Assembly (NCBI RefSeq): GCF_023264855.1
Contig: NZ_JAHFUW010000033.1
Coordinates: 1 to 52,215, forward strand
DNA length: 52,215 bases
Source of the DNA: Herbiconiux sp.
GTDB lineage: Bacteria > Actinomycetota > Actinomycetes > Actinomycetales > Microbacteriaceae
Reading direction: 5' to 3'
The position numbers were made by a program, and so were the translations under genes. This document shows, in pieces, positions 2-12,538 of this stretch. Position 1 is the stretch's first letter; each line of letters begins with the position of its first letter. The notes beneath the pieces were generated by a model, which was not told the DNA's origin, did not search any database, and saw nothing but the letters and a program-made list of their open reading frames with translations.

Positions 2-2416
2 TCGCCCTCGGGGCTGACTGCGGCCGAGGTCGCCGAGCGCGTCGCGGCCGGCCGCACGAACGCGTTCGTGCAAGACACCAGCCGTAGCGTGTGGAGCATC
101 GTGCGCGCGAACGTGCTCACGCTGTTCAACGGCATCATCCTGGCCTGCTTCCTGGTGCTGCTGGCGATCGGCCGGTGGCAGGATGCGCTGTTCGGCTTCT
201 CCGCCGTGGCCAACGCGGTGATCGGCAGCGTGCAGGAGTACCGCGCCAAGCGCGCCCTCGACAAGCTGGCCCTGCTGAACGCCCCGCACGCGCGGGTGCT
301 CCGCGACGGCGCGGAGGCGGAGGTCGACGTGGCTGCCGTGGTGGTGGACGACATGCTCGTGCTGCGCGCCGGCGACCAGGTTCCCGCCGACGCGCTCGTG
401 CAGGCCTCGCGCGGCCTGCAGCTGGACGAGTCGATGCTCACCGGCGAGTCCGACCCGGTGGAGAAGGCGCCCGGCGACCGGGTGCTCTCCGGTTCGGTAG
501 TGGTGGGCGGCGAGGGCACCGCCGTGGTCGACCGGGTGGGCGCCGACTCGTTCGCCAACTCGCTCGCCGCCGAGGCCAAGCGGTTCTCGCTCGTGGCCTC
601 CGAACTGCGCTCCTCGATCAACCGGGTGCTGAAGTGGGTGGCCTGGATCATCGGCCCCGTCGCGCTGCTGGTGCTGAACGCGCAGATGATCGCGCAGGGC
701 GGCTGGGTGCAGGCCTGGGAGAGCGGAGCCTGGCGCGACGCGGCCGTCGCCACCATCGCCTCGGTCGTCGCCATGGTGCCGCTCGGCCTCGTGCTCATGA
801 CGAGCATCACCTTCGCCGTCGGCGCCGTGAAGCTCGCCCGTCAGCAGGTGCTGGTGCAGGAGCTCCCCGCGGTGGAGGGGCTCGCTCGGGTCGACCTGAT
901 CTGCCTCGACAAGACCGGCACGCTCACGCAGGGCGACATCGTGTTCGACGCCGCGCATCCGCTCGCCGAGGTGCCCGGCTGGGAGGGTGTGCTGGCCTGG
1001 TACGGCGTGCAGAACGACGCCAACGCGACGGCGCGCAGCCTCGCCGAGCCGTTCCCGGCGGTGCGAACGGATGCCCCGGTCGACCGTGTGCCGTTCTCGT
1101 CGGCCCGCAAATGGAGCGCCGTGATGTTCGGCGACGGGATGTGGATTCTGGGCGGGCCCGAGATGGTGTTTCCCGGCGCATCCGCTGACCCGATGCGCCG
1201 GAAGCTCGCCGAGCGCGCCGCCGAGCTGGCCGCGACCGGCCGCCGCACGCTCGTGCTCGCGCACGGCACGCCCACCGGCGACGAGACCGTGCCGGCCGAC
1301 GCCGTGCCGGTGGTGCTGCTGACCTTCCGCGAGAACATCCGCCCGGATGCCGCCGAGACGCTCGCCTACTTCGCCGCGCAAGACGTGGGGGTGCGCATCA
1401 TCTCGGGCGACAACCCGCAGACCGTGGCCGCCATCGCCCGCGAGGTGGGGCTGGACGCCCCGCACGGCTTCGACGCCCGCGAGCTGCCCGACGACGCGGA
1501 CGAGCTGCTGCGGGTGCTCGACGAGAACCTCGTGTTCGGCCGGGTGACGCCCGACCAGAAGAAGCGGATCGTCGTGGCGCTGAAAGCGGCCGGACACACC
1601 GTGGCGATGACCGGGGACGGCGTGAACGACGCCCTGGCCATCAAGGAGGCCGACATCGGCGTGGCCATGAACTCCGGCGCGGCGGCCACCAAGGCCGTGG
1701 CGCGGCTGGTGCTGCTCGACGGCAAGTTCTCGCACCTGCCGAGCGTCGTCGCCGAGGGTCGGCAGGTGATCGCGAACATCGAGCGCGTGTCGATGCTCTT
1801 CCTCACCAAGACCGCCTACGCGACCTTCCTGGCGATCACGTTCGGCATCCTGCTGCTGCCCTTCCCCTTCCTGCCCCGCCAGCTGTCGGTGACGGATGGC
1901 CTCACCATCGGCATTCCGGCGTTCTTCCTGGCACTGCTGCCCAACGCGCAGCGGTACGTACCCGGATTCCTGCGCCGTTCGCTCACCTTCGCGGTGCCCG
2001 CCGGCGTCGCCGTGACGCTCGGCATCGCCGCGTTCGCCCGCCTGGCCGCGAACGCGCAGATCCCCGAGGCCGAGATCCGCACCGGGTCGACGCTCATCCT
2101 GACCATCATCGGGCTGTGGATCCTGGTGGTGCTCTCGCGCCCGGTCACCCGGTTCAAGGGGCTCGTGATCGGCGCCATGATGATCGGACTGGTGCTGGTG
2201 TACACGGTGCCGATCGTGCGCGACTTCCTGCAGCTGGTCGACCCGTCGCTCACCACCGCGCTGCTCGTGCTCGGCACCTCGCTGCTGTCGATCGCGCTGA
2301 TCGAGATCGTGCGCTTCGCCCACCGCCGGATCGCGCGACGCGACGCCGAGACGGCCGGGCTCGCGCGGAGCGCTACCGGCGCGCGCGGCGCACGAAGATC
2401 TGCCGGACGACCCTGA
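2..2416 (+). CDS. ctpE: Cation-transporting P-type ATPase, CtpE-like (5' end outside window)
   Basis: A membrane cation pump that is open at the left edge: the reading frame is already running at base 2 and gives GLTAAEVAERV, the usual N-terminal actuator start of the CtpE group, so the true start lies upstream. Visible motifs in order are the actuator LTGES (near base 440), the phosphorylation site DKTGTLT (near 907) and the hinge GDGVND (near 1616), with membrane helices on both sides and a hydrophobic C-terminal block. Overall layout matches mycobacterial CtpE, a calcium-uptake ATPase. Odd point: the M4 motif that normally reads PEGL reads PLGL here (near 782), removing a glutamate that is an ion ligand in related pumps, so substrate and activity are uncertain. 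The 3' end overlaps the convergent AarF-like gene by 44 bases. Confidence 0.88.
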   Translation, partial: SPSGLTAAEVAERVAAGRTNAFVQDTSRSVWSIVRANVLTLFNGIILACFLVLLAIGRWQDALFGFSAVANAVIGSVQEYRAKRALDKLALLNAPHARVLRDGAEAEVDVAAVVVDDMLVLRAGDQVPADALVQASRGLQLDESMLTGESDPVEKAPGDRVLSGSVVVGGEGTAVVDRVGADSFANSLAAEAKRFSLVASELRSSINRVLKWVAWIIGPVALLVLNAQMIAQGGWVQAWESGAWRDAAVATIASVVAMVPLGLVLMTSITFAVGAVKLARQQVLVQELPAVEGLARVDLICLDKTGTLTQGDIVFDAAHPLAEVPGWEGVLAWYGVQNDANATARSLAEPFPAVRTDAPVDRVPFSSARKWSAVMFGDGMWILGGPEMVFPGASADPMRRKLAERAAELAATGRRTLVLAHGTPTGDETVPADAVPVVLLTFRENIRPDAAETLAYFAAQDVGVRIISGDNPQTVAAIAREVGLDAPHGFDARELPDDADELLRVLDENLVFGRVTPDQKKRIVVALKAAGHTVAMTGDGVNDALAIKEADIGVAMNSGAAATKAVARLVLLDGKFSHLPSVVAEGRQVIANIERVSMLFLTKTAYATFLAITFGILLLPFPFLPRQLSVTDGLTIGIPAFFLALLPNAQRYVPGFLRRSLTFAVPAGVAVTLGIAAFARLAANAQIPEAEIRTGSTLILTIIGLWILVVLSRPVTRFKGLVIGAMMIGLVLVYTVPIVRDFLQLVDPSLTTALLVLGTSLLSIALIEIVRFAHRRIARRDAETAGLARSATGARGARRSAGRP

Positions 2417-4382
2417 GCAGGCCGAGGAACCCGAAGAACCCGATCAGCGCTCCGAGCAGGTCGAACAGGCGCAGCCCGCTGGCGAGCTGCGGGCTCGAGT
2501 CGGTCACCAGCAGCACCACCGCCAGCACCACGGCCGCGATCGAGATGAGGGTGCCGACGATCTCCGAGGTGATGGTGCGGGCGAAGCGCTGATCGGCCTC
2601 GTCGGTGAACGCTCGCAGCTTGATGCCGACGGATCCGCGCTCCAGCCCCGAGAGCAGCGTGTCGAGGCGGCGCGGCAGCCCCCGCACCAGCGCGGCCGTC
2701 ACGGCGGCCTGCGCCTGGGCGCCGGTGGCGAACTGCCTGAGCTTGACCATGTGCCGCAGCACCCGGGGCACCACGGGGATGGCCCGCTGCACCAGGTCGA
2801 AATCGGGAACGATCACTTTGAGGCACCCCTCGAGGGTGGCGAAGCTGCGGAACGCCGAGGCCAGATCGGCGGGCAGGGCGATGCGGTGCTGGCGGATGAC
2901 GTCGACCACCCGGGTGAAGATCGATCCGTCGCCGGGCGGCAGGTGACGCTGCGAGGTCAGCACCACGCCGATGTCGTGACGGAAGGCGTCGAGGTCGACG
3001 TCATCCGGAACGTCGACGATGAGCAGAAGCGCATCCGTGGCCCCCACGTCGTCTTCGCTGGTCGCCGCGAGCATCAGCGCGGCGAGGTGCTGCCGCCGGC
3101 TGCGCTCCACGATGCCCACGGCTCCGAAGTCGATCAGGCCCAGCGAGCCGTCCTCGCGCAGGATGACGTTGCCCGGGTGCAGGTCGGCGTGGAAGACGCC
3201 GTGCACGAGGATCTGCTCGATCACGGCCGTCATCAGCGACACGGCGAGGGCCTCGCGCGCCTCCTCCGTCAGTTCGGCCAAGCGTGCCCCGGCCCGGCTG
3301 AGCGGCACCCCGTCCACCAGGTCCATCGTCAGCATCCGCGCGCCGGAGGCCTGCGGATGGATGCGGGGCACCGCGATCGGAACGTCGCGCCCGTGGTCGT
3401 CGGCCGCGATCAGCGCGAGCGTGCTGCGGATCATCTCGGTGTTGGAGGCCTCGATGCCGTAGTCCAGCTCGTCCAGCAGTGTGCTGGTGAAGCCCCTGGC
3501 CACCGATTCCAGGCGGAGGTCGCGTCCCATCCGGGTGTGCGTCTCGGCCCGCTGGGCCAGGCGCAGGATGATGTCGACGTCGGCCTCCACCTGGGCCCGA
3601 GCCGCCGGACGCTGCACCTTGACCACGACCGGAGTGCCGTCGAGCAGCTCGGCCCGGTGCACCTGGGCCACGGATGCCGCCGCCAGCGGTTCGGGGTCGA
3701 CCGACGCGAACACGGTGTCGAGCGGGCCCCCGATCCCCTCTTCGATCAGCGGGCGGATCGTCTCCCAGGGCAGCGTGGTGGCGCCGGACTGCAGGGAGGC
3801 CAGCGCGCTCAGATACGGCTCCGGAACGAGGTCGCGCCGGGTGGAGAGCACCTGCCCGAGTTTCACGAACGTGACACCCGACTCGTTGATCGTGTCGACG
3901 ATCGCCTGGGCCCGCTGCGCGCTCGTGGTGAGCTCATGATCGGTGGATGCGCGCGGGTGGAAGAGCCAGCCGGCCCCGTGCCGCGAGGCGATGGCGAGGA
4001 TCTGCAGGTACCGCTTCGACCGGCGCCGCTGCCGGAGCGCCGCCCGCACCGCGTCGACCGGGTTCGGCAGCGCGCGCGTCGGCACGATCGCCTCCAGAGC
4101 GACCAGCACCGCGATACCCAACGCGAACACCCAGGCGAGGGCGAGCACCACCACGGCCAGCACGACCAGCGCGTGCCGGGCATCCTGCACCTGGCCGTCC
4201 GGCTGCAGGCCGGTGCCGTCGAGCACCCACGAGGCGAAGGGCAGGCCTGCCGCGAACACCAGCAGCCCCACCACGATGCTGCGCGGCCAGCCCACCGGGG
4301 TGTCCAGGATGCGCCGGGCCACGAAGCCCACCAGCACCGCCGAGACGATCGCGAGAAGAACGGTCACCACATCGGCCAGCAT
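2373..4382 (-). CDS. AarF/UbiB (ABC1) kinase-like membrane protein
   Basis: 669 residues. The N-terminal 100 residues hold about three hydrophobic helices. The ABC1 domain follows with its hallmark KLGQ motif (in FVKLGQVLSTR), an alanine-rich loop (AAASVAQVH) ahead of VVVKVQRP, the catalytic-loop HADLHPGN and the metal-binding LIDFGAVG. Two more helices close the C-terminus. Proteins of this family are atypical kinases/ATPases linked to isoprenoid-quinone or lipid metabolism; the exact role in actinobacteria is not settled. The start ATG has the Shine-Dalgarno-like AAAGGGG upstream. The gene is convergent with the P-type ATPase and lies 71 bases beyond the asp operon on the same strand; that gap contains three copies of CCGGCGCC. 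Confidence 0.9.
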   Translation of the reverse strand: MLADVVTVLLAIVSAVLVGFVARRILDTPVGWPRSIVVGLLVFAAGLPFASWVLDGTGLQPDGQVQDARHALVVLAVVVLALAWVFALGIAVLVALEAIVPTRALPNPVDAVRAALRQRRRSKRYLQILAIASRHGAGWLFHPRASTDHELTTSAQRAQAIVDTINESGVTFVKLGQVLSTRRDLVPEPYLSALASLQSGATTLPWETIRPLIEEGIGGPLDTVFASVDPEPLAAASVAQVHRAELLDGTPVVVKVQRPAARAQVEADVDIILRLAQRAETHTRMGRDLRLESVARGFTSTLLDELDYGIEASNTEMIRSTLALIAADDHGRDVPIAVPRIHPQASGARMLTMDLVDGVPLSRAGARLAELTEEAREALAVSLMTAVIEQILVHGVFHADLHPGNVILREDGSLGLIDFGAVGIVERSRRQHLAALMLAATSEDDVGATDALLLIVDVPDDVDLDAFRHDIGVVLTSQRHLPPGDGSIFTRVVDVIRQHRIALPADLASAFRSFATLEGCLKVIVPDFDLVQRAIPVVPRVLRHMVKLRQFATGAQAQAAVTAALVRGLPRRLDTLLSGLERGSVGIKLRAFTDEADQRFARTITSEIVGTLISIAAVVLAVVLLVTDSSPQLASGLRLFDLLGALIGFFGFLGLLRVVRQIFVRRARR

Positions 4383-4453
4383 GCGCAGCCCCTTTCGTCC
4401 ATTCCGGCGCCTTCGTCGTTCCCGGCGCCGATGGTCGGTGCCGGCGCCGCAGG

Positions 4454-6517
4454 TCAGTCCCGGCGGAGCATGTCCAGGCCCGCGCCGGCGAACTGCCGCA
4501 GCGTGGCATCCGGCAGGAACGCCCGGGTGAGCGCCGCACCGATGCGGGTGAGGTCGCCCTCGTCGCGGTAGAGCAGGTAGATCGGCTCCGAGCGCGGGTT
4601 GAACTTCTGCTTGAACCGGTGCAGTGACGAGAAGCCGTACACCGGCTCGAGGATGGCGCTCAACTGCCCGAGCAGGTGCGCGATCCGCCCCTCGTCCTCA
4701 CCCGCATGGTGGGCGAGCGGTGCGCCGGAGAGCGAGAGGATCTGCGCCCCCTCCTCGGCGAAGGCGCGGGCCGAGGAGCCGATCAGGTACTCCATCACCG
4801 AGCCGAACCCGTCGTCGCGGCGCCGCATCAGGTCGAGCGTCCAGCCGTGGTGCTCTCCGCCCGGGCCGAACACGGGCAGCCAGCTGAGGAAACCGTCCAC
4901 GTCGCCCTGCGGCGAGAGGGCGAGCGCGAGCCGCACCTCGGGGTCGTCGGCCTCCTGGAGCGTGCCGAGCGTGAACCGCATCTCGGGCAGCTCCTTGTCA
5001 CCCACCCACCCCTCGGAGATGGCCCGCAGCTGCTGGCGCACCCCCCACGGTTCATCCGCGAGGCGCGTGAGGCGGAAGGTCATCCCCTCCCGCTCGGCCT
5101 TGTTCAACGCGGTGCGGATGTTCGCCCAGGCCTTGCCCGTGAACGCCAGCCCCGGCAGATCGACGATCGTGTCGTCGGCGATGATGAGATCGCGCCATCC
5201 CTCGGGCATCGCGTCGCGCGTCGCCTGGCTGGAGCTGAAGAAGCACGGCACGAGGGAGTCGCGCTCGGCCGCCCGCACGAACTCGTCGACGCTCGCCGCG
5301 ACCGACTCCGACGGGCCCAGCGGATCGGCCAGCACGATCGCCACGCCCAGGTGCTTCTGGTACGGCACCAGCCCGGCCGTGGTGCGGAAGTACTCCATGC
5401 CCTCCCAGGTGGCCATCCAGGACAGCGTGCCTCCCCCGTCGGCCTTGATGATCGCGCGCGCGTCGTCGGCCGTGGGCAGCTCACGGTGCTCGCGCTTGCG
5501 CGGCACCCCGAGCGGGCGGCGACGGTGCGAGGCGAACGCGCGACGGGTGGCGACGAGGTAGATCAGGAACGCGAGCCAGAGCACGGAGGTCGCGATGGCC
5601 ACATCCGCGTCGCCCCAGTCCAGCTGCAGGTCGACCGGGTCCAATACCGACAGCGCGATGTAGAGCACCGCGACGAGCACGTTCACGACCGCCCAGATCA
5701 CCGTCAGAACCCAGGCCCACCGCCGGCCGAGCCGCAGCCCGTTGGCGACGAGCAGGATGACGGCCGCGTCGATCAGCACCTCGACCCACGGTCCGTCCGC
5801 CGCCGCGGTGGGCCCGAACGGACCGTTCGTCGGCAGCAGCAGGGTCAGGATCTGCACCACGCCCAGCGCGAGGCCCGCCGCGAACGCGAGCAGCCGCCGC
5901 TCCCGTACGCTCGCGCGCTGGATGCGGAACGACCGGTCGACCACGAGCACGAACACCACGGCGAAGGCGTGCTCGAGATCGGCGAGGGTGCCGAGAAAGA
6001 GCAGTCCGATCGCGGTGTAGCCCACCACGATGATCCAGCCGCGCTGCCGCCACGGCGAGGCGAAGAGCGAGACACAGGCGGCGAAGCAGGCCATGGTGCC
6101 GCCCGAGGGGCCCACGTCGAGCATGCCGGCGAGGGTGATCGCCCACGGCCACGGCAGCATGCTCGCCAGCCAGAGGAAGGCGGCGGTCGCCAGCACGGCC
6201 ACCAGCTGGCCGGCGCCGAAGTAGAGAAGAGCTCGTCGCCATCCGCGCTGCCACTCCAGAAGCCCCATCCAGAAGAAGCCGAGCACCGCGAAGAGGTAGC
6301 CCCAGGGCTCCGCCACGAAGAACGTGCCGGTGACGGGAGTCCACCATCGGCCGTCCTGCAAGGCGGGAACACCGAACGCCACCGATTCCCACCACGGCTG
6401 CTGCGCGGTGGGCGACCACAGACCCTGACCGGCGACGCCGACGATCAGCACCACGGCGACCAGCGCGAGGGTGGCGGGGATGCGGGTGACGATGTCGCGC
6501 AAGGAAGGTGGTCTCAT
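4454..6517 (-). CDS. Rhomboid-like membrane protein fused to DUF2156 (MprF-like aminoacyl-lipid transferase) domain
   Basis: 687 residues. The N-terminal half has several membrane helices with a rhomboid flavour: RWWTPVTGTFF resembles the rhomboid WR motif, GPSGG matches the GxSG serine motif, and DLEHAFA supplies a later histidine. A second group of helices follows. The C-terminal 330 residues form the DUF2156 double GNAT-like domain found in MprF and alanyl- or lysyl-phosphatidylglycerol synthases, with a typical end block (YGFSSLHRFKQKFNPRSEP). These enzymes use aminoacyl-tRNA to modify membrane lipids; the amino acid here is unknown. The start ATG overlaps the aspD stop as ATGA, so it is the last gene of a four-gene operon and probably translationally coupled. 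Context suggests alanine or aspartate as donor (inference). A start at 6535 is possible but less likely. Confidence 0.85.
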   Translation of the reverse strand: MRPPSLRDIVTRIPATLALVAVVLIVGVAGQGLWSPTAQQPWWESVAFGVPALQDGRWWTPVTGTFFVAEPWGYLFAVLGFFWMGLLEWQRGWRRALLYFGAGQLVAVLATAAFLWLASMLPWPWAITLAGMLDVGPSGGTMACFAACVSLFASPWRQRGWIIVVGYTAIGLLFLGTLADLEHAFAVVFVLVVDRSFRIQRASVRERRLLAFAAGLALGVVQILTLLLPTNGPFGPTAAADGPWVEVLIDAAVILLVANGLRLGRRWAWVLTVIWAVVNVLVAVLYIALSVLDPVDLQLDWGDADVAIATSVLWLAFLIYLVATRRAFASHRRRPLGVPRKREHRELPTADDARAIIKADGGGTLSWMATWEGMEYFRTTAGLVPYQKHLGVAIVLADPLGPSESVAASVDEFVRAAERDSLVPCFFSSSQATRDAMPEGWRDLIIADDTIVDLPGLAFTGKAWANIRTALNKAEREGMTFRLTRLADEPWGVRQQLRAISEGWVGDKELPEMRFTLGTLQEADDPEVRLALALSPQGDVDGFLSWLPVFGPGGEHHGWTLDLMRRRDDGFGSVMEYLIGSSARAFAEEGAQILSLSGAPLAHHAGEDEGRIAHLLGQLSAILEPVYGFSSLHRFKQKFNPRSEPIYLLYRDEGDLTRIGAALTRAFLPDATLRQFAGAGLDMLRRD

Positions 6518-8145
6518 GATCGGCTCGCCTGCCATTCTTTTACGTACTCCAGGGCGACGGAGCGCAGACTCTCCCCGATCCGGGCATACTGCACATCGCG
6601 CAGGTTGGCGAGCGAGACCCGGATCGACCACGCCGGCCCCTCGAAGCCGCCGCCGTTCAGCAGGATGATGCCGGTCTGCTCGGCCAGGCGGAAGAGGATG
6701 TCGGTGGGTTCGTACGTGCGCTCCAGGTATTCGGCGAACTCCGGATCCCAGTGGCGCCGGGCGTAGGCGAGCAGGTCGAGCTCGACGTAGTAGCCCACGC
6801 GGTACGGGTCGTCCGGAAACCGCACGGCCATCCCCTCGGTGAGCATGTCCATCCGGCGCCGGATGAGCGCCTGCACGGCGTGACGGTAGTGATCGTCGCT
6901 GTCGAGCAGGCAGGAGGCCGAGAACAGCAGCATCATGCACTGCTGCGGCAGCGAGAGGCCCGCGGTGTGGTTGAGCGCCACCGAGCGGCTGTCGGCCACG
7001 AGCCGGTCGATGAAGCGGATGCGGCGCGGGGCGAGCGAGAGCGAGCCGTAGCGGGCGTCGAGCTCGGCCAGGTCGTTCTCGCCGAGCGCGGCGATCTTCT
7101 CGTCGAACACGTTGTCGCGGCTGAGCGCGATGGCGCCCAGCCGCCATCCGGTGGCCCCGAAGTACTTCGAGTACGAGTAGACGCCGATGGTGTTGCGGGG
7201 CAGTTCGGCCAGCAGCGAGCGGAACCCGTCGATGAAGGTGCAGTACACGTCGTCGGTGATGATCGTCAGCCCGGGATTGTGCTCGCGGACGGTCTCGGAG
7301 ATCAGCCGGATGGTCTCGTCGGCGATGCGTACCGAGGGCGGGTTGGAGGGGTTCACCACGAACAGCGCCGCGATCGAGGGATCGCGCAGCCGCTCGATCT
7401 CCGCCGCCGGGTACTGCCAGAGATTCACCCCGCGGTCGTCGACCTCGCTGGCCGCGAGATGCACCACGTCGAAGTCGTAGTCGGACAGGCGCGGGATCTC
7501 CAGGTACGGCGTGAAGATCGGCGTCATGATCGCGATCCGGTCCCCGCGGTGCAGCACCTTGTTCTTCAGCAGCGAGTCGAAGATGTAGCACATCGCCGCC
7601 GTTCCGCCCTCGACCGCGAACAGGTCGAACGGCACCTCGGGCTCGACGCCGGCACAGAGCTCCTGCACCAGGTACCGGTGGGTGATCGCCTCGGCGTGGT
7701 GCAGCATCCGGTCGGGCTCGGGATAGTGGTCGCCGATCACGGAGTCGGCGAGTTCCCACACGAAGGAGTCGGCGTCGAAGCCGAGTTCGTCGAGGCCGAG
7801 CGCCAGCACGCGGCGCAGCAGACCGGTTCCCGCCTCGCCGTCGTTCTCGTCGAGCCAGCGCGTGAACCGGTCCGCGATGCCGTCCTTCTCCGGCACGCCG
7901 ATGAGTTCCGGATCCCACTCCCGGTTCTCACGGCAGACGGTCAGCGCGAACCGCCCGAGGGCGAAGAAGGCCTCGCGCGGCGCCGAGGCGATGAAATTGG
8001 GGTTGCCGCGGCCGGCGTTCAGCATCTGGAAGGCGGTACGCGCCTCGTGCTCGCCGGCGAGGCGCTGCAGTTCGGACTTCAGCTCGAACGGCGACAGCGT
8101 CTGCAGCCGGGCGATGCGCTCGCGGGTGATGCTGGGGTGCGGCAC
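6514..8145 (-). CDS. aspD: Bifunctional aspartate aminotransferase / aspartate 4-decarboxylase
   Basis: 543 residues, the family's usual length and clearly longer than ordinary class I aminotransferases. PLP-dependent conversion of L-aspartate to L-alanine plus CO2 in the cytoplasm. The PLP lysine lies in SYSKYFGATGWRLG (about residue 325), with FVVNPSNPPS and DDVY upstream as cofactor-contacting elements, and the N-terminal helical extension (SPFELKSELQRLA) typical of AspD. Start is GTG at 8145 preceded by AAGGAG with five bases between, an excellent ribosome binding site. The gene follows aspT by 28 bases and overlaps the DUF2156 gene by four. Together with AspT it would form an electrogenic aspartate-in/alanine-out cycle that consumes a proton and so generates proton-motive force. 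Confidence 0.93.
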   Translation of the reverse strand: MPHPSITRERIARLQTLSPFELKSELQRLAGEHEARTAFQMLNAGRGNPNFIASAPREAFFALGRFALTVCRENREWDPELIGVPEKDGIADRFTRWLDENDGEAGTGLLRRVLALGLDELGFDADSFVWELADSVIGDHYPEPDRMLHHAEAITHRYLVQELCAGVEPEVPFDLFAVEGGTAAMCYIFDSLLKNKVLHRGDRIAIMTPIFTPYLEIPRLSDYDFDVVHLAASEVDDRGVNLWQYPAAEIERLRDPSIAALFVVNPSNPPSVRIADETIRLISETVREHNPGLTIITDDVYCTFIDGFRSLLAELPRNTIGVYSYSKYFGATGWRLGAIALSRDNVFDEKIAALGENDLAELDARYGSLSLAPRRIRFIDRLVADSRSVALNHTAGLSLPQQCMMLLFSASCLLDSDDHYRHAVQALIRRRMDMLTEGMAVRFPDDPYRVGYYVELDLLAYARRHWDPEFAEYLERTYEPTDILFRLAEQTGIILLNGGGFEGPAWSIRVSLANLRDVQYARIGESLRSVALEYVKEWQASRS

Positions 8146-8173
8146 GGGGTCTCCTTAGGACGGCTGCGAGGGA

Positions 8174-9895
8174 TCAGAGGGCCACGAGGGCGATGACGGC
8201 TACTACCAGTGCGCCGCCCAGGGTCAGGACGATGTTGCCGACGGCGTACGGGATGGTGAACCCGAGCAGCGGGACGCTGCTGCGTGCCCGTTCGCGCAGG
8301 GCCCCGACCGCGGCGGTGGTGGTGAGCGAGCCGGCCAGCATGCCGAGGATCACCACCGGTTCGGTCTTGCGCATCAGGAAGCGGCCGACGACGGTCATCA
8401 CCAGCAGGGGCACGAGCGTCACCACCACGCCGGCGAGGAAGAGGCCGGCGCCGTAGTCGATCAGGCCCTCCACGAACCCCGGGCCCGAGTCGATGCCCAC
8501 GATCGCCACGAACATCGCCAGGCCCACGGTCTCGAAGAACCACTGCGCGCCCGGCGGGATGCGCCCGAACGTCGGCCGCTTCGCGCGCCGCCAGCCCAGC
8601 ACGAGCCCGACGAGCAGCACACCGACGCTCGAGGTGAGCGAGAGCGGAACGTCTCCGACGAGCAGGCTGGGCACGCCGATCAGGGCGCCGAGGGCGATGC
8701 CGAAACCGATCGTGACGATGTCGGTCTTCGGATCGGTGCGTTCGGCCCGGCCCACCGCCTGAATGCCCTGCTCGAGCAGATCCGTCGGCCCCTGCACGCG
8801 CAGTTCGTCGCCCGCCTGCAGCACGGTGTGCCCGGTGACGGCGATCGGCCGGCCCGCCCGCAGCAGCCGGGTGGCGAAAATGCGGCGCGAGCGCGGGTCG
8901 TTCCGCATCTCGGCGATTGTGCGCCCGACGGCCGACTTGTTCGTCACCACGATGTCCAGCGCCTCCAGCGGGAAGTCGAGCAACTCGCGATCGGCGATCT
9001 CCGTTCCGGCGTTCTCCAGCTGCCGGGCGATCAGTGCCGGCGTGGTTCCGGCGACGACGATCTCGTCTCCGGGCGCGAGCGCGTCGTCGGGCCCGGGATC
9101 CACGATGCCCGAGCTTCGGCGCACCCGGGCGACGTAGAGGTGGGACCCGGCGATCTCCGCGGCCTCCGACTCGAACGCGCGCACGGTACGGGCCGCGAAG
9201 TCGGGGCCGAGCCGGTAGGCCCGCCGGGCGATCAGCGGATACGCGCTGGACACATCCGGGGCCTCCTCGTGGAACCCGAGGCGCTGCTCGAGCTCGCGCG
9301 AGGCGGCGGGCAGATCCCGGATGCCCAGCAGCCTCGGTGCGAGCAGCGAGATGTAGAGGGCGGCACCGAGGGTGCCGAAGATGTAGGTCACGGCGTAGGC
9401 GACCGGCACGAGATCGCTCCAGGCCTGGGCGGTCGACCCGTCCACCGGCAGTCCCGCGATGGCATCCTGCGCCACCCCGATGATCGCCGACTGGGTGAGG
9501 CCGCCGCCCGCCAGACCCGCCGCGATGCCCGGGTTGTAGCCGAGGATCACGCTCACCCCGATCGTGACGGCGAAGCCGACCACGGCCGTCGCCAGCGCGA
9601 AGCCGGCCTGCGGCAGCCCCGAGCGCCGTAGCCCGGCGAAGAACTGCGGCCCCAGCTTGTAGCCGAGCGAGAACAGGAAGAGCAGGAAGAAGGTCTGCTT
9701 CATCACGGGCGCCACCTGCAGGTCGCTGCCGATCACCGCCCCGAACACCACGCCCACCAGCAGCGTCGAGGTGACCGTCCCCAGGCCGATGCCCCGCACG
9801 CTCACCCGCCCGAGCAGGAACCCCAGACCGAGCGTCGCGAACACCACGATCTCGGGGTGGGCCACCAGCACGTCGTGGAGCCACGGGACGATCAT
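8174..9895 (-). CDS. aspT: Aspartate:alanine antiporter, AspT/YidE family
   Basis: 573 residues, slightly above the family norm. Layout is that of AspT-type exchangers: an N-terminal set of about five helices with the glycine-rich GLAGGGLTQSA motif, a long cytoplasmic centre (about residues 200-370) containing two RCK_C/TrkA_C-like modules (for example PGDEIVVAG and AGDELRVQG), and a second helical set at the C-terminus with a related GLVAG-like repeat (GMLAGSLTTTAA). The start ATG overlaps the upstream stop codon as ATGA. Being next to aspD makes the substrate assignment (aspartate uptake in exchange for alanine) much firmer than sequence family alone. Confidence 0.9.
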   Translation of the reverse strand: MIVPWLHDVLVAHPEIVVFATLGLGFLLGRVSVRGIGLGTVTSTLLVGVVFGAVIGSDLQVAPVMKQTFFLLFLFSLGYKLGPQFFAGLRRSGLPQAGFALATAVVGFAVTIGVSVILGYNPGIAAGLAGGGLTQSAIIGVAQDAIAGLPVDGSTAQAWSDLVPVAYAVTYIFGTLGAALYISLLAPRLLGIRDLPAASRELEQRLGFHEEAPDVSSAYPLIARRAYRLGPDFAARTVRAFESEAAEIAGSHLYVARVRRSSGIVDPGPDDALAPGDEIVVAGTTPALIARQLENAGTEIADRELLDFPLEALDIVVTNKSAVGRTIAEMRNDPRSRRIFATRLLRAGRPIAVTGHTVLQAGDELRVQGPTDLLEQGIQAVGRAERTDPKTDIVTIGFGIALGALIGVPSLLVGDVPLSLTSSVGVLLVGLVLGWRRAKRPTFGRIPPGAQWFFETVGLAMFVAIVGIDSGPGFVEGLIDYGAGLFLAGVVVTLVPLLVMTVVGRFLMRKTEPVVILGMLAGSLTTTAAVGALRERARSSVPLLGFTIPYAVGNIVLTLGGALVVAVIALVAL

Positions 9896-10653
9896 CGGCC
9901 CACCGCTTCCCGAACGGCGGCCGGCAGGTGCTCGATCCGCCGGCGGTCACGGATGGCGACGATCCCCACGCAGAACACCCAGATCAGCCAGGGGAAGGTC
10001 GCCAGAAGCACGGTGGCGCCGCCCGCCGCCGCGAAGAACGCGTCGGGGTTCGTGCCGCCGAACATCGTCGGCACGGCCAGCAGGTTGAGGCCGGCCACGG
10101 CGTAGGCCAGGTACCCCGTCCAGGCCGGCAACGCGGCCGAGGCGATGATGACGTACGCGGCGGATGCAGCGACCAGCGCCGTGAGGGTGCAGCCGACCGA
10201 CCCGAAGAGCAGCGTGTGACCCTCCACGAGGGTTCGGAGCGACGAGGGATCCGGCCGCAGATCCATCGTGTCCAGCGCGGTGGCACCCTGCAGCGCATCG
10301 CCGACCAGGGTGCACAGCACGAGCAGCAGACCCGATCCGAACAGGATGCCGGTCACCCACTGCAGATCGGGCCGGGCCTGCGTGATGAGCTGGCGGAAGC
10401 CCGAGACGAACACCACGATCGCGGCGAGCAGGAAGGTGTCGAAGAGCACGTTCACCAGCGTCAGGTCGGCGGTCGCCGAGGCGTACCGCACGAGAGCGTC
10501 TGCGTCGTCCAGAGACGGGGCGGGCACGAACAGCACGAGCTGCAGCACGAACTCCGCCAGGGTGAGCGTTCCGACCGCGATGGCCGCGATGCCCGTCCAG
10601 AGCCGCACATCGGGGTTGAGGCGGCCGTTCTTCACTACGGTCATCGTGCTCAC
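9892..10653 (-). CDS. Membrane protein of unknown function, first gene of asp operon
   Basis: 253 residues with about six or seven predicted membrane helices and no soluble domain; the last 20 residues are basic and probably cytoplasmic. The layout resembles DUF4386-like proteins, but I do not recognise the family with certainty. The start is GTG at 10653 with AGGGGG four bases upstream; an ATG nine bases further in is the alternative. Its stop overlaps the aspT start as ATGA, so it is translated together with the aspartate/alanine system and may be an accessory membrane subunit. No function is assigned. Confidence 0.75.
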   Translation of the reverse strand: MSTMTVVKNGRLNPDVRLWTGIAAIAVGTLTLAEFVLQLVLFVPAPSLDDADALVRYASATADLTLVNVLFDTFLLAAIVVFVSGFRQLITQARPDLQWVTGILFGSGLLLVLCTLVGDALQGATALDTMDLRPDPSSLRTLVEGHTLLFGSVGCTLTALVAASAAYVIIASAALPAWTGYLAYAVAGLNLLAVPTMFGGTNPDAFFAAAGGATVLLATFPWLIWVFCVGIVAIRDRRRIEHLPAAVREAVGR

Positions 10654-10692
10654 GAGACCCCCTGCCGGTCGGATCAGCCGTTGTTGGAGATG

Positions 10693-10698
10693 ACCCTA
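10693..10698 (-). promoter_or_regulatory. Putative -10 element of the asp operon
   Basis: On the minus strand this reads TAGGGT, matching the TAnnnT actinobacterial -10 pattern, about 40 bases before the GTG start of the operon. It leaves a short leader that carries the AGGGGG ribosome binding site. No clear -35 is visible. Confidence 0.4.
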
Positions 10699-10806
10699 GC
10701 GCGGGCGCGGGCGGCCCGCCCCGGTTGATTTGATCCGGTCTGCGGGATGGGCGAAGATGGCCGCATGGCGGGCCGCTGATCGCCCGCCCACGACGGAGGC
10801 GGCGTG

Positions 10807-12096
10807 ATGCGGCGAACGGCCAGGCGGGTGATCTCCCTGCTGGCGGCCGGCATCGTCGCCGTGGTCGCCGTGGCGCTCGGCCCGGGCCACGAGCGGGTCG
10901 AGCCCGATCCCGACATCGCCACCTTGCTGAGCCTGCCCGACGACCAGGTCGACGACTACCTGGCCGATCGGCCGGGGCTCGCGCTGAAGGCCCTGAACAC
11001 CCGGCCCGACGTGGTGGCCGAGTGGTGGTCGGAGCAGTCCCCCGAAGACCGGGCTGAGATGGTGGAGTCGGCGCCGGAGACGATCGGCAACCTCGGCGGC
11101 ATCGACTACGCCTCGCGCGACACCGCGAACCGCGCCCAGCTCGCCGAACGCCTCGACGCCGCGGGCAAGGCGGTGGCGGCCGATCCCTCCGACGCCGAGG
11201 CCGCGAGCCGGTTCGCCGCCCTCAGCGCCATCCACGGCGCCTCGAAGGGAAAGCACGAACCGGCCCGCTACCTGGTCGAGCTCACCGACGACCAGCCTCC
11301 GCTCGCGGCCGTGGCCGTCGGCGACCCCGACACGGCGCGGCAGGTGACGTATTCCGTTCCCGGCATGGGCACCTACACCGACGACATGCAGCTGTGGACG
11401 ACGGGGGCCGAGAACATCCATCGTGCCCAGGGCCGGGCGGGCGCGCCGGCCGCGCGTTCCGTCATCGCATGGATCGGGTACGTCCCCCCACCCCCGGGCA
11501 TCGACGCCACCGCGGGTGCGTACGCCGCTCGTGGCGCGCCCCTGCTGAGTGCCGACATCCGGGCCCTCACCGCGGCTCGCGACGGAACCGGGCTCGACAC
11601 GGTGAGCGTGATCGCGCACTCCTACGGCACCACGACGGCGGCGGATGCGCTGGCCGACGACGATCTCGGCCTCTACGCCTTCGTGATGCTCGGCTCGGCC
11701 GGGATCGAATACCGGATCGGCCGTGCCGCCGCGCTGAGCGCCGAGCAGGTGTTCGCGGGCGAGGCCGTCGCCGACCTGGAGGCGGGGCTCGGCCGGATCG
11801 AGCGGATCGATCCGCGCGCGCCCGCCTTCGGCGCCACCGTCATCGGCGCCGACGGCGATCCCGCGCGCGGGCTCGTGGGCGTCACCGGGCACGCCCCGAT
11901 CCTGCACTCCCCCTACAACGACGACCCCACCTCGGGGGCCTGGACGAAGTACGCCGACCCCGCCGAACGCGACCGCCTGTACGCCCAGCACATGCGGGAG
12001 TTCGGCTACCTGGATACCGGCACCGACTCGCTCGAGAACGCGGCCCGCGCCTCCACCGACCCCTCGGCGACGACCTTTCAGACGCCCGCGAAGTAG
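10807..12096 (+). CDS. DUF1023-type alpha/beta hydrolase, exported or membrane-anchored
   Basis: 429 residues. A basic N-terminus (MRRTARR) followed by a single hydrophobic helix suggests a signal anchor, so the enzyme probably acts at the outer face of the membrane. A helical region of about 150 residues precedes the alpha/beta hydrolase fold, which has YVPPPPGIDATAGAY and the nucleophile elbow AHSYGT, both typical of the DUF1023 family common in actinobacteria. Substrate is unknown. GGAGG lies seven bases before the ATG at 10807 and four before a GTG at 10804, so I chose the ATG. The 3' end overlaps the convergent small membrane protein by 19 bases. Confidence 0.85.
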   Translation: MRRTARRVISLLAAGIVAVVAVALGPGHERVEPDPDIATLLSLPDDQVDDYLADRPGLALKALNTRPDVVAEWWSEQSPEDRAEMVESAPETIGNLGGIDYASRDTANRAQLAERLDAAGKAVAADPSDAEAASRFAALSAIHGASKGKHEPARYLVELTDDQPPLAAVAVGDPDTARQVTYSVPGMGTYTDDMQLWTTGAENIHRAQGRAGAPAARSVIAWIGYVPPPPGIDATAGAYAARGAPLLSADIRALTAARDGTGLDTVSVIAHSYGTTTAADALADDDLGLYAFVMLGSAGIEYRIGRAAALSAEQVFAGEAVADLEAGLGRIERIDPRAPAFGATVIGADGDPARGLVGVTGHAPILHSPYNDDPTSGAWTKYADPAERDRLYAQHMREFGYLDTGTDSLENAARASTDPSATTFQTPAK

Positions 12097-12488
12097 CGCC
12101 GTCCCGGCCCCGTCCACAGCGGGACGATCACCGCGGCCGCCACCACCAGCTGCACGGCCACGCCCGACCAGTCGCCGTCTCCCGCCACCACCAGGTCGAG
12201 CACGGCGAGCAGCAGCGCCAGCAGCATCACCACGGTCGCGCCGATCCGCGACGCCCGGCTCCCCCGGGCCACGCCCGAGGCCAGGGCGATCACGAACAGG
12301 CCGAACAGGATCATCGCGACGCCCAGCAGCGTCACCGTGAGCGCGACGCCGCCTTCGGAGGCCTCGGGCACGTACCGCAGGAAGATGGCCAGGATGCCCA
12401 GGGCGATCTGGGCGATGCCGCCGATGTACATCAGCACCACGGCGAACGTCACGGATCCGGGCCGGCGCCGGGAGGCAGTCTTCGTCAT
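12078..12488 (-). CDS. Small four-helix membrane protein
   Basis: 136 residues, nearly all in four hydrophobic helices after a short basic N-terminus (TKTASRRRPGS). It resembles the DUF7144/YbaN-like small actinobacterial membrane proteins, but the family is not certain and no function can be given. Two in-frame ATGs exist (12497 and 12488). I prefer 12488 because TTCGAT lies seven bases upstream of it, the spacing seen for other apparently leaderless genes in this window. Confidence 0.7.
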   Translation of the reverse strand: MTKTASRRRPGSVTFAVVLMYIGGIAQIALGILAIFLRYVPEASEGGVALTVTLLGVAMILFGLFVIALASGVARGSRASRIGATVVMLLALLLAVLDLVVAGDGDWSGVAVQLVVAAAVIVPLWTGPGRRYFAGV

Positions 12489-12538
12489 GCCGCCCATCGA
12501 ACCACGGATGACGCGCGTCGGAGGGGCATCATGGAGTC

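Follow-up and report, generated by a model that had tools for sequence, protein, structure and literature searches.

Contig C83 of a Herbiconiux sp. genome (52,215 nucleotides of 4.37 Mb; this contig is the window in what follows, and the genome is labelled G000) carries on its minus strand a run of four closely packed genes: ORF1, a gene for an AspT-type aspartate:alanine antiporter, a gene for the aspartate 4-decarboxylase AspD and a gene for a membrane protein with a DUF2156/LPG_synthase_C domain. The best reading of this run is a stress operon that would pair aspartate-to-alanine decarboxylation with tRNA-dependent alanylation of a membrane lipid, and we put its probability at about one half. 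The operon itself is real. The lipid-modification part of the reading gains support from an unexpected side, a paralogue of alanyl-tRNA synthetase (AlaRS2 hereafter) that recurs with the DUF2156 gene, and we hypothesize a coupling to the energy cycle of AspT and AspD (together AspTD).

The operon and its products

The gene map agrees with the original prediction on the run, which reads ORF1 (9892–10653), AspT (8174–9895), AspD (6514–8145) and the DUF2156 gene (4454–6517), all on the minus strand, and on its three junctions: ATGA overlaps join ORF1 to AspT and AspD to the DUF2156 gene, and 28 bases containing an AAGGAG box lie between the AspT stop and the AspD start. Profile matches likewise bear out that AspT, AspD and an MprF-like transferase domain are encoded in tightly packed genes.

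In the AspT/AspD cycle of Tetragenococcus and others, AspT imports aspartate and exports alanine, and AspD uses one proton per turn. The window resembles this system in that AspT stands beside AspD, and AspD, a pyridoxal phosphate (PLP) enzyme, is near solved L-aspartate beta-decarboxylases: it scores 735.7 bits with TIGR03801, against an equivalog cut-off of 435.1, and matches 2zy5 at E = 5.6e-142, with an identical SKYFGATGWR stretch. AspT aligns over its full length (5–567) with TIGR03802 (E = 1.8e-156), its 522.1 bits falling under the equivalog cut-off of 546.95; PF06826 is over its cut-off with 213.7 bits and TrkA_C matches too. The gene is best filed as AspT-like, full-length and next to AspD, and its product is 77% identical to that of Agreia and 70% to that of Plantibacter. 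What is seen here differs from the known cycle by the DUF2156 gene placed directly after AspD, in three loci of one AspD clade among those examined, and by ORF1 in front, in the window only.

The DUF2156 protein consists of a rhomboid-like part (about 1–235), more helices up to about residue 330 and a GNAT-type aminoacyl-tRNA:lipid transferase domain at 355–650, where PF09924 (LPG_synthase_C) scores 213.6 bits against a cut-off of 27.5. Its matches among PDB sequences include the lysyl-phosphatidylglycerol (lysyl-PG) synthase 4v36 (E = 3e-24) and the alanyl enzyme 4v34 (E = 4.2e-15). The AlphaFold model (predicted local distance difference test, pLDDT, 84.7) has its best fold matches in MprF 7duw, the lysyl-PG synthase (L-PGS) 4v36 and the alanyl-PG synthase (A-PGS) 4v34/4v35, and the 50 matches listed, none of them a rhomboid, are of MprF/L-PGS/A-PGS type or belong to other GNAT-fold or related transferases. 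The transferase fold is thus shared with the MprF/LpiA lysyl-PG synthases (TMt 0.82 to 4v36), whereas the profile of bifunctional MprF, NF033480, is matched only by its C-terminal part (positions 434–837 of 841) and far under its cut-off (154.1 bits against 600), so that the N-terminal half is not recognised as an MprF flippase. The protein ends after the transferase domain and lacks the lysyl-tRNA synthetase (LysRS) that is fused to it in LysX. Since solved relatives move an amino acid from aminoacyl-tRNA to a lipid, the same activity is predicted here.

We regard the N-terminal half as rhomboid-like and any protease activity as putative. The window protein has no PF01694 (Rhomboid) or PF20401 (Rhomboid_2) match at E ≤ 1; among 30 family members scanned at that threshold, PF01694 is found in 5 (best 1.8e-5) and PF20401 in 9 (best 1e-4), and a search of eight genomes gave five weak Rhomboid matches in DUF2156-bearing frames, four over the PF01694 cut-off and one below. 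Of 33 proteins, 29 have the pair formed by Ser138, in a GPSGG stretch, and His183; three have neither residue and one has the Ser alone (Fisher p = 7e-4 for joint presence, the rows being related and five of them nearly identical). A profile of 25 of these 33 rows, the eight omitted including the three that lack the pair, aligns weakly to real rhomboids (E = 0.056, probability about 1%), the GPSGG stretch falling on GASGA and the His on the rhomboid His; searched with a profile from eight real rhomboids, the window protein was not reported at E ≤ 10. Two relatives of about 890–920 residues (L163:7097-9865 and L168:6966-9632) combine an N-terminal DedA-like VTT domain with the rhomboid-like and LPG_synthase_C parts, and VTT occurs in 5 of the 30 members scanned (E ≤ 1). 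The window genome has two further DUF2156 genes, G000:C78:21782-22693 (L125) and G000:C10:43833-44741 (L126), both without the Ser/His pair.

Recurrence and separate histories of AspTD and the DUF2156 gene

Distribution was surveyed in samples of 16 genomes of the genus, 398 of the family and 327 of the order, and gene order in the best 80 of 450 AspD loci. Conservation of the order in relatives, which the original prediction had named as a check, was found in part: AspT-AspD-DUF2156 stands as in the window in two other genera of the family, Agreia and Plantibacter, and ORF1 joins it in neither. The DUF2156 gene directly follows AspD in three of the four closest loci; Curtobacterium has AspTD without it. 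The order is not general, with a DUF2156 domain in 3 of the 80 AspD loci (Agreia, Plantibacter and Nocardioides, by the DUF2156 profile on the DNA fetched) and AspD over the cut-off in 6 of the 398 family genomes. The more distant AspD proteins of G215, G259 and G318 are 45–47% identical, and the stretches around them, two of which are short contigs, hold no DUF2156 domain. As only one of the 16 genus genomes and those six of the family have AspD, the unit looks acquired in the window genome. A plasmid source was considered for both genes and rejected: none of the eight plasmid records that match the DUF2156 protein at E ≤ 1e-60 exceeds 44% identity, and all 68 plasmid matches of AspD at E ≤ 1e-100 stay below 60%. 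Two plasmid DUF2156 matches are full-length, with no AspTD or AlaRS within about 6 kb in an annotation that is incomplete.

The two parts of the pair have different trees. In the AspD tree, built from 24 rows of which 20 come from the 80 loci, the window, Agreia and Plantibacter form one clade (support 96/94) with Curtobacterium as sister. In the tree of 33 DUF2156 proteins the same trio, preset from gene order, is not one clade (p-AU 7.8e-92), and neither are the window and Agreia, a pair picked after seeing the tree (p-AU 2.2e-61). A single AspTD-DUF2156 operon inherited without exchange is therefore ruled out, and DUF2156 genes of different lineages have become partners of AspTD, by first joining or by re-pairing. 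This speaks more for a use of the pair than for chance, and the replacement of an old DUF2156 partner by a resident gene fits the trees equally well. The window protein falls in a clade of 10 rows (support 100/99): eight adjoin AlaRS2 but not AspTD, and five of the eight are near-identical Plantibacter rows; the ninth, from Agreia, adjoins both AspTD and AlaRS2, and the window is the tenth.

ORF1, a 253-residue predicted membrane protein of unknown family, was counted as part of the unit in the original prediction, and this part of it fails. The protein has no Pfam or NCBIfam match at E ≤ 0.01, and its model (pLDDT 75, six long helices) finds no PDB fold at E ≤ 0.001. There is no ORF1 match in the 80 AspD loci, and among the loci compared it adjoins AspTD only in the window; the orthologues adjoin a different gene set in the stretches read. 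Membership in a conserved module is thereby ruled out. Each of the ten other same-genus genomes of the family sample carries the gene once, and the window genome has a 69% paralogue at G000:C21:10815-11561, so the window ORF1 is a second copy.

A short alanyl-tRNA synthetase and an esterase

AlaRS2 is an alanyl-tRNA synthetase (AlaRS)-related protein of about 477 residues without editing or C-terminal domain, and so short of the full-length AlaRS domain set; PF01411 covers residues 5–463, nothing else matches at E ≤ 0.001, and NCBIfam profiles stay below their cut-offs. The window genome encodes its normal AlaRS separately, as a protein of 888 residues with SAD and DHHA1 domains. An alignment of 12 AlaRS2 rows with the normal AlaRS shows all 12 keeping the arginine of motif 2, the Asp of motif 3, the Asn that precedes VFM(Q/E), and the Asn and Asp that we take to read G3:U70. 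The motifs for charging tRNA(Ala) are largely kept, and charging is predicted.

The gene surroundings of 31 window-type DUF2156 genes (the window, L004, L005 and 28 more loci) and of the two G000 paralogues were examined. AlaRS2 adjoins a window-type DUF2156 gene in 11 family genomes, spanning four genera and two layouts: convergent, 13–114 bases apart (Plantibacter, Agreia and G335), and same-strand with a 7-base gap (G101, L168). In Agreia G351 an esterase gene immediately precedes AspT, and AspT-AspD-DUF2156 and AlaRS2 face each other end to end; in G386 the DUF2156 gene, the esterase and AlaRS2 all lie inside about 9.5 kb. The AlaRS2 of the window genome is on another contig, G000:C43, and is 89% identical to that of Agreia. 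No tRNA(Ala) gene was found nearby in the eight sources scanned.

The two genes also occur together at the level of whole genomes, with thresholds of E ≤ 1e-90 for AlaRS2 and E ≤ 1e-85 for a match to the DUF2156 protein. AlaRS2 is present in 38 of the 398 family genomes and in 8 of the 327 at order level, and the DUF2156 match in 60 of the 398, of which five, all in genomes lacking AlaRS2, are partial or of low identity (G109, G133, G170, G341 and G368). Leaving out the window's 10 genus-mates, 27 of 28 AlaRS2 genomes also have a DUF2156 match, the exception being G040; over all 398 genomes the figure is 27 of 38. Fisher tests, which treat genomes or genera as independent though they are related, give p = 7.8e-24 without the genus-mates, 6.6e-17 with them and 2.9e-7 by genus (10 of 11 AlaRS2 genera). 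By coordinates, 16 of the 28 genomes, G000 included, have no AlaRS2 near the DUF2156 match, and 15 of these 16 still have both genes, so the co-occurrence is not merely an effect of linkage.

The esterase, EstC25 (PF00756, with N-terminal hydrophobic stretches seen by eye), changes its place among the same partners: in Agreia it precedes AspT, in G339 and G655 it neighbours AlaRS2, and in G386 it lies near the DUF2156 gene. It is also found in the window genome, 113 bases upstream of the DUF2156 paralogue L126 on contig C10.

Mechanism, rival explanations and surroundings

We propose the following route. AspT would exchange aspartate for alanine, and AspD would turn aspartate into alanine, consuming a proton. 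AlaRS2, short, free of editing and encoded on another contig, would charge tRNA(Ala), possibly with alanine handed over from AspD, and the DUF2156 protein would take the alanine from Ala-tRNA(Ala) and esterify a membrane lipid, diacylglycerol (DAG) or PG. The esterase of the same neighbourhoods may take the alanine off again. The rhomboid-like half would anchor the enzyme in the membrane and may retain Ser-His chemistry of its own. The trigger is probably acid or energy stress; energy yield, surface charge and stress function would follow from what is known of these families. Metabolic coupling from AspD to the lipid alanine is plausible. Of all this, the sequence shows the genes with their overlaps and domain identities, and the recurrence of AspTD and of AlaRS2 with DUF2156 genes; the donor, the lipid acceptor, the parts played by AlaRS2 and the esterase, the trigger and the hand-over are inferences. 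The fuller scheme, an aspartate-to-lipid route with AspT/AspD, a dedicated editing-free AlaRS, a rhomboid-fused transferase and a reversing esterase, and with the rhomboid-like half possibly acting as an intramembrane serine enzyme that links alanylation with proteolysis or deacylation, is offered tentatively and with more doubt than conviction.

The original prediction left the donated residue as alanine or aspartate. The link to AlaRS2 points to alanine, which thereby receives independent support from adjacency and co-occurrence, and we consider it the probable residue. Aspartate found no support as lipid donor: a LysRS-type query, which should also find aspartyl-tRNA synthetase (AspRS) and was run without a positive control, found neither type among the 939 genes called in 59 loci.

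Several observations weigh against the alanylation operon. In AlaRS2 the motif 3 Glu is an Ala in 4 of the 12 rows (the window's not among them), and the Trp of EIWN is absent from all 12. AlaRS2 stands without a DUF2156 match in G040 and is missing from 33 of the 60 genomes that have one, and all ten genus-mates in the family sample keep AlaRS2 without a match at 1e-85, so AlaRS2 does not depend on the DUF2156 gene. In the window genome AlaRS2 is not near any DUF2156 gene (L180 stretch), and, except in G386, no DUF2156 domain lies in the stretches fetched around the non-adjacent AlaRS2 genes (L180–L189, L191, L193 and L215–L218). AlaRS2 lies near ribonucleotide reductase-like genes (judged by eye) in two other families of the order; two AlaRS2 genes outside the family are L215:7736-9154 and L216:7495-9105, in genomes G446 and G548, and the stretches fetched around AlaRS2 in these two and in the family genome G655 contain no DUF2156 domain. 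On the side of AspTD, 77 of the 80 AspD loci lack the DUF2156 domain, several of them cut by contig ends, and the AspTD-linked DUF2156 protein of Plantibacter belongs to a clade without adjacent AlaRS2. Against the surface-charge idea in particular, passages of PMC10580965 state that deletion of alaDAGS in C. pseudotuberculosis did not significantly alter resistance to the antimicrobials tested.

The AspTD locus of Nocardioides lianchengensis (L007:3273-11632) also weighs on this side, since it pairs with a LysX-like (lysine) enzyme. On one strand, a LysX-like gene (DUF2156 plus LysRS, 1.6 kb upstream of AspTD) overlaps a gene for a 487-residue protein that looks by eye like an amino-acid transporter, followed by AspT and AspD. 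A lipid enzyme beside AspTD can thus be of lysine type, which speaks for both systems serving the same stress rather than for AspD supplying the lipid with alanine. It is possible, then, that AspTD and an aminoacyl-lipid transferase both help at low pH while no alanine from AspD enters lipid. PDB relatives titled 'Protein regulated by acid pH' and 'Low pH-inducible protein LpiA' fit such a shared response, as do papers listed under the terms lpiA, acid tolerance and lysyl-phosphatidylglycerol. Taken alone, however, it leaves the AlaRS2 link of window-type DUF2156 genes without an explanation.

That the DUF2156 enzyme uses lysine, aspartate or a broad range of amino acids, with AlaRS2 unrelated to it, we think unlikely. 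The donor is not readable from the domain alone, the best PDB sequence match is the lysyl enzyme 4v36 ahead of the alanyl 4v34, and many genomes, as well as two other families, have AlaRS2 apart from DUF2156; yet the adjacency in four genera and two layouts, the co-occurrence across genomes and the LysRS/AspRS-type search, uncontrolled as it was, all speak against it. Less probable again is an assembly of mobile-island genes by chance or hitch-hiking, with no common function: the acquired look of the unit, given how few genus and family genomes have AspD, and the shuffling of neighbours between loci would suit it, but the genes overlap in the window and DUF2156 genes of different lineages directly follow AspD in three of the four closest loci. 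The weakest alternative, that AlaRS2 is itself a transferase acting with Ala-tRNA on a small molecule like AcmF, which in passages of PMC12945691 is likewise a truncated AlaRS with aminoacylation and tRNA-recognition domains only, from a cluster with an alpha/beta hydrolase that removes alanine, is very improbable, because the same passages report that AcmF, in which N219Q and D232E are changed, is missing the majority of residues that bind ATP and alanine, because the aligned AlaRS2 rows keep an Asn and an Asp in the motif regions, possibly at the same two positions, and because the DUF2156 gene already provides a transferase.

Among known systems, one of the closest to the alanylation operon is the corynebacterial AlaDAGS, which in passages of PMC10580965 makes alanyl-DAG (Ala-DAG) and is tied to Ala-DAG and Ala-PG. 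Both are actinobacterial membrane proteins with a GNAT-type aminoacyl-lipid transferase half, and the C. glutamicum host described there had pesT deleted along with alaDAGS, and esterase genes occur in the neighbourhoods here; the link with AspTD or a short AlaRS is different, and the likeness is one of description rather than of direct alignment with AlaDAGS or PesT. An AlaDAGS-type activity (Ala-DAG) may be present, with the AlaRS2 links suggesting the donor. LysX (DUF2156 plus LysRS) and, in the passages found, fungal ErdS (AspRS plus DUF2156) also give a transferase its own aminoacyl-tRNA synthetase, whereas here the genes are separate, the synthetase is of alanine type and the membrane half is rhomboid-like. 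The ascamycin proteins AcmD/AcmE/AcmF share an extra AlaRS, a truncated AlaRS-like protein, a hydrolase and the use of Ala-tRNA; they differ in their small-molecule product, and the passages of PMC12945691 mention no DUF2156 transferase and describe AcmF as having lost activation residues and become a transferase. Our literature search returned nothing joining AspT with MprF, DUF2156 with rhomboid, aspartate 4-decarboxylase with phosphatidylglycerol, or AspT and antiporter terms together, no rhomboid-MprF fusion in passages of one paper naming both and, in the passages found, no AlaRS paralogue with lipid aminoacylation, which does not establish absence from print. If true, the link of a free-standing AlaRS paralogue to a lipid transferase would give a testable answer, and the AspT/AspD link would point to acid and aspartate as the conditions to look in.

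Around the operon, an ABC1/UbiB-like kinase gene (2373–4382, minus strand; PF03109, E = 4.2e-58) follows the DUF2156 gene after 71 bases and may be co-transcribed with the run; it has no relative in the 11 other loci compared. The intergenic stretch 10654–10803, known from the gene map only, is the likely place of the operon promoter, and a consensus scan of 4300–10900 gave no sigma-70-like promoter. That interval holds three terminator-like sites on both strands together (shuffles 1.6, standard deviation 1.4), and the sole one on the minus strand is inside the DUF2156 gene. Beyond the intergenic stretch, a divergent alpha/beta hydrolase gene (Abhydrolase_8, 10804–12096, plus strand; PF06259, E = 1e-21) is also present at the Agreia locus, with 63% identity to L004:5311-6678.

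Other pieces recur at the G339 locus (L187), where a phosphoesterase-family gene is accompanied by genes for a DUF7144-like membrane protein and a P-type ATPase. The P-type ATPase at window positions 2–2416 is about 80% identical to its counterpart there, and the DUF7144 membrane protein at 12078–12497 is 49% identical over 78 residues. A short ORF at L187:4908-5114, beside the phosphoesterase-family gene, AlaRS2 and the esterase, corresponds to the C-terminal end of AspD only (82% identity with the window AspD over 51 residues, 91% with that of Agreia over 46) and looks like a decayed AspTD locus. These common genes at the window, Agreia and G339 point to pieces of one island in different orders.

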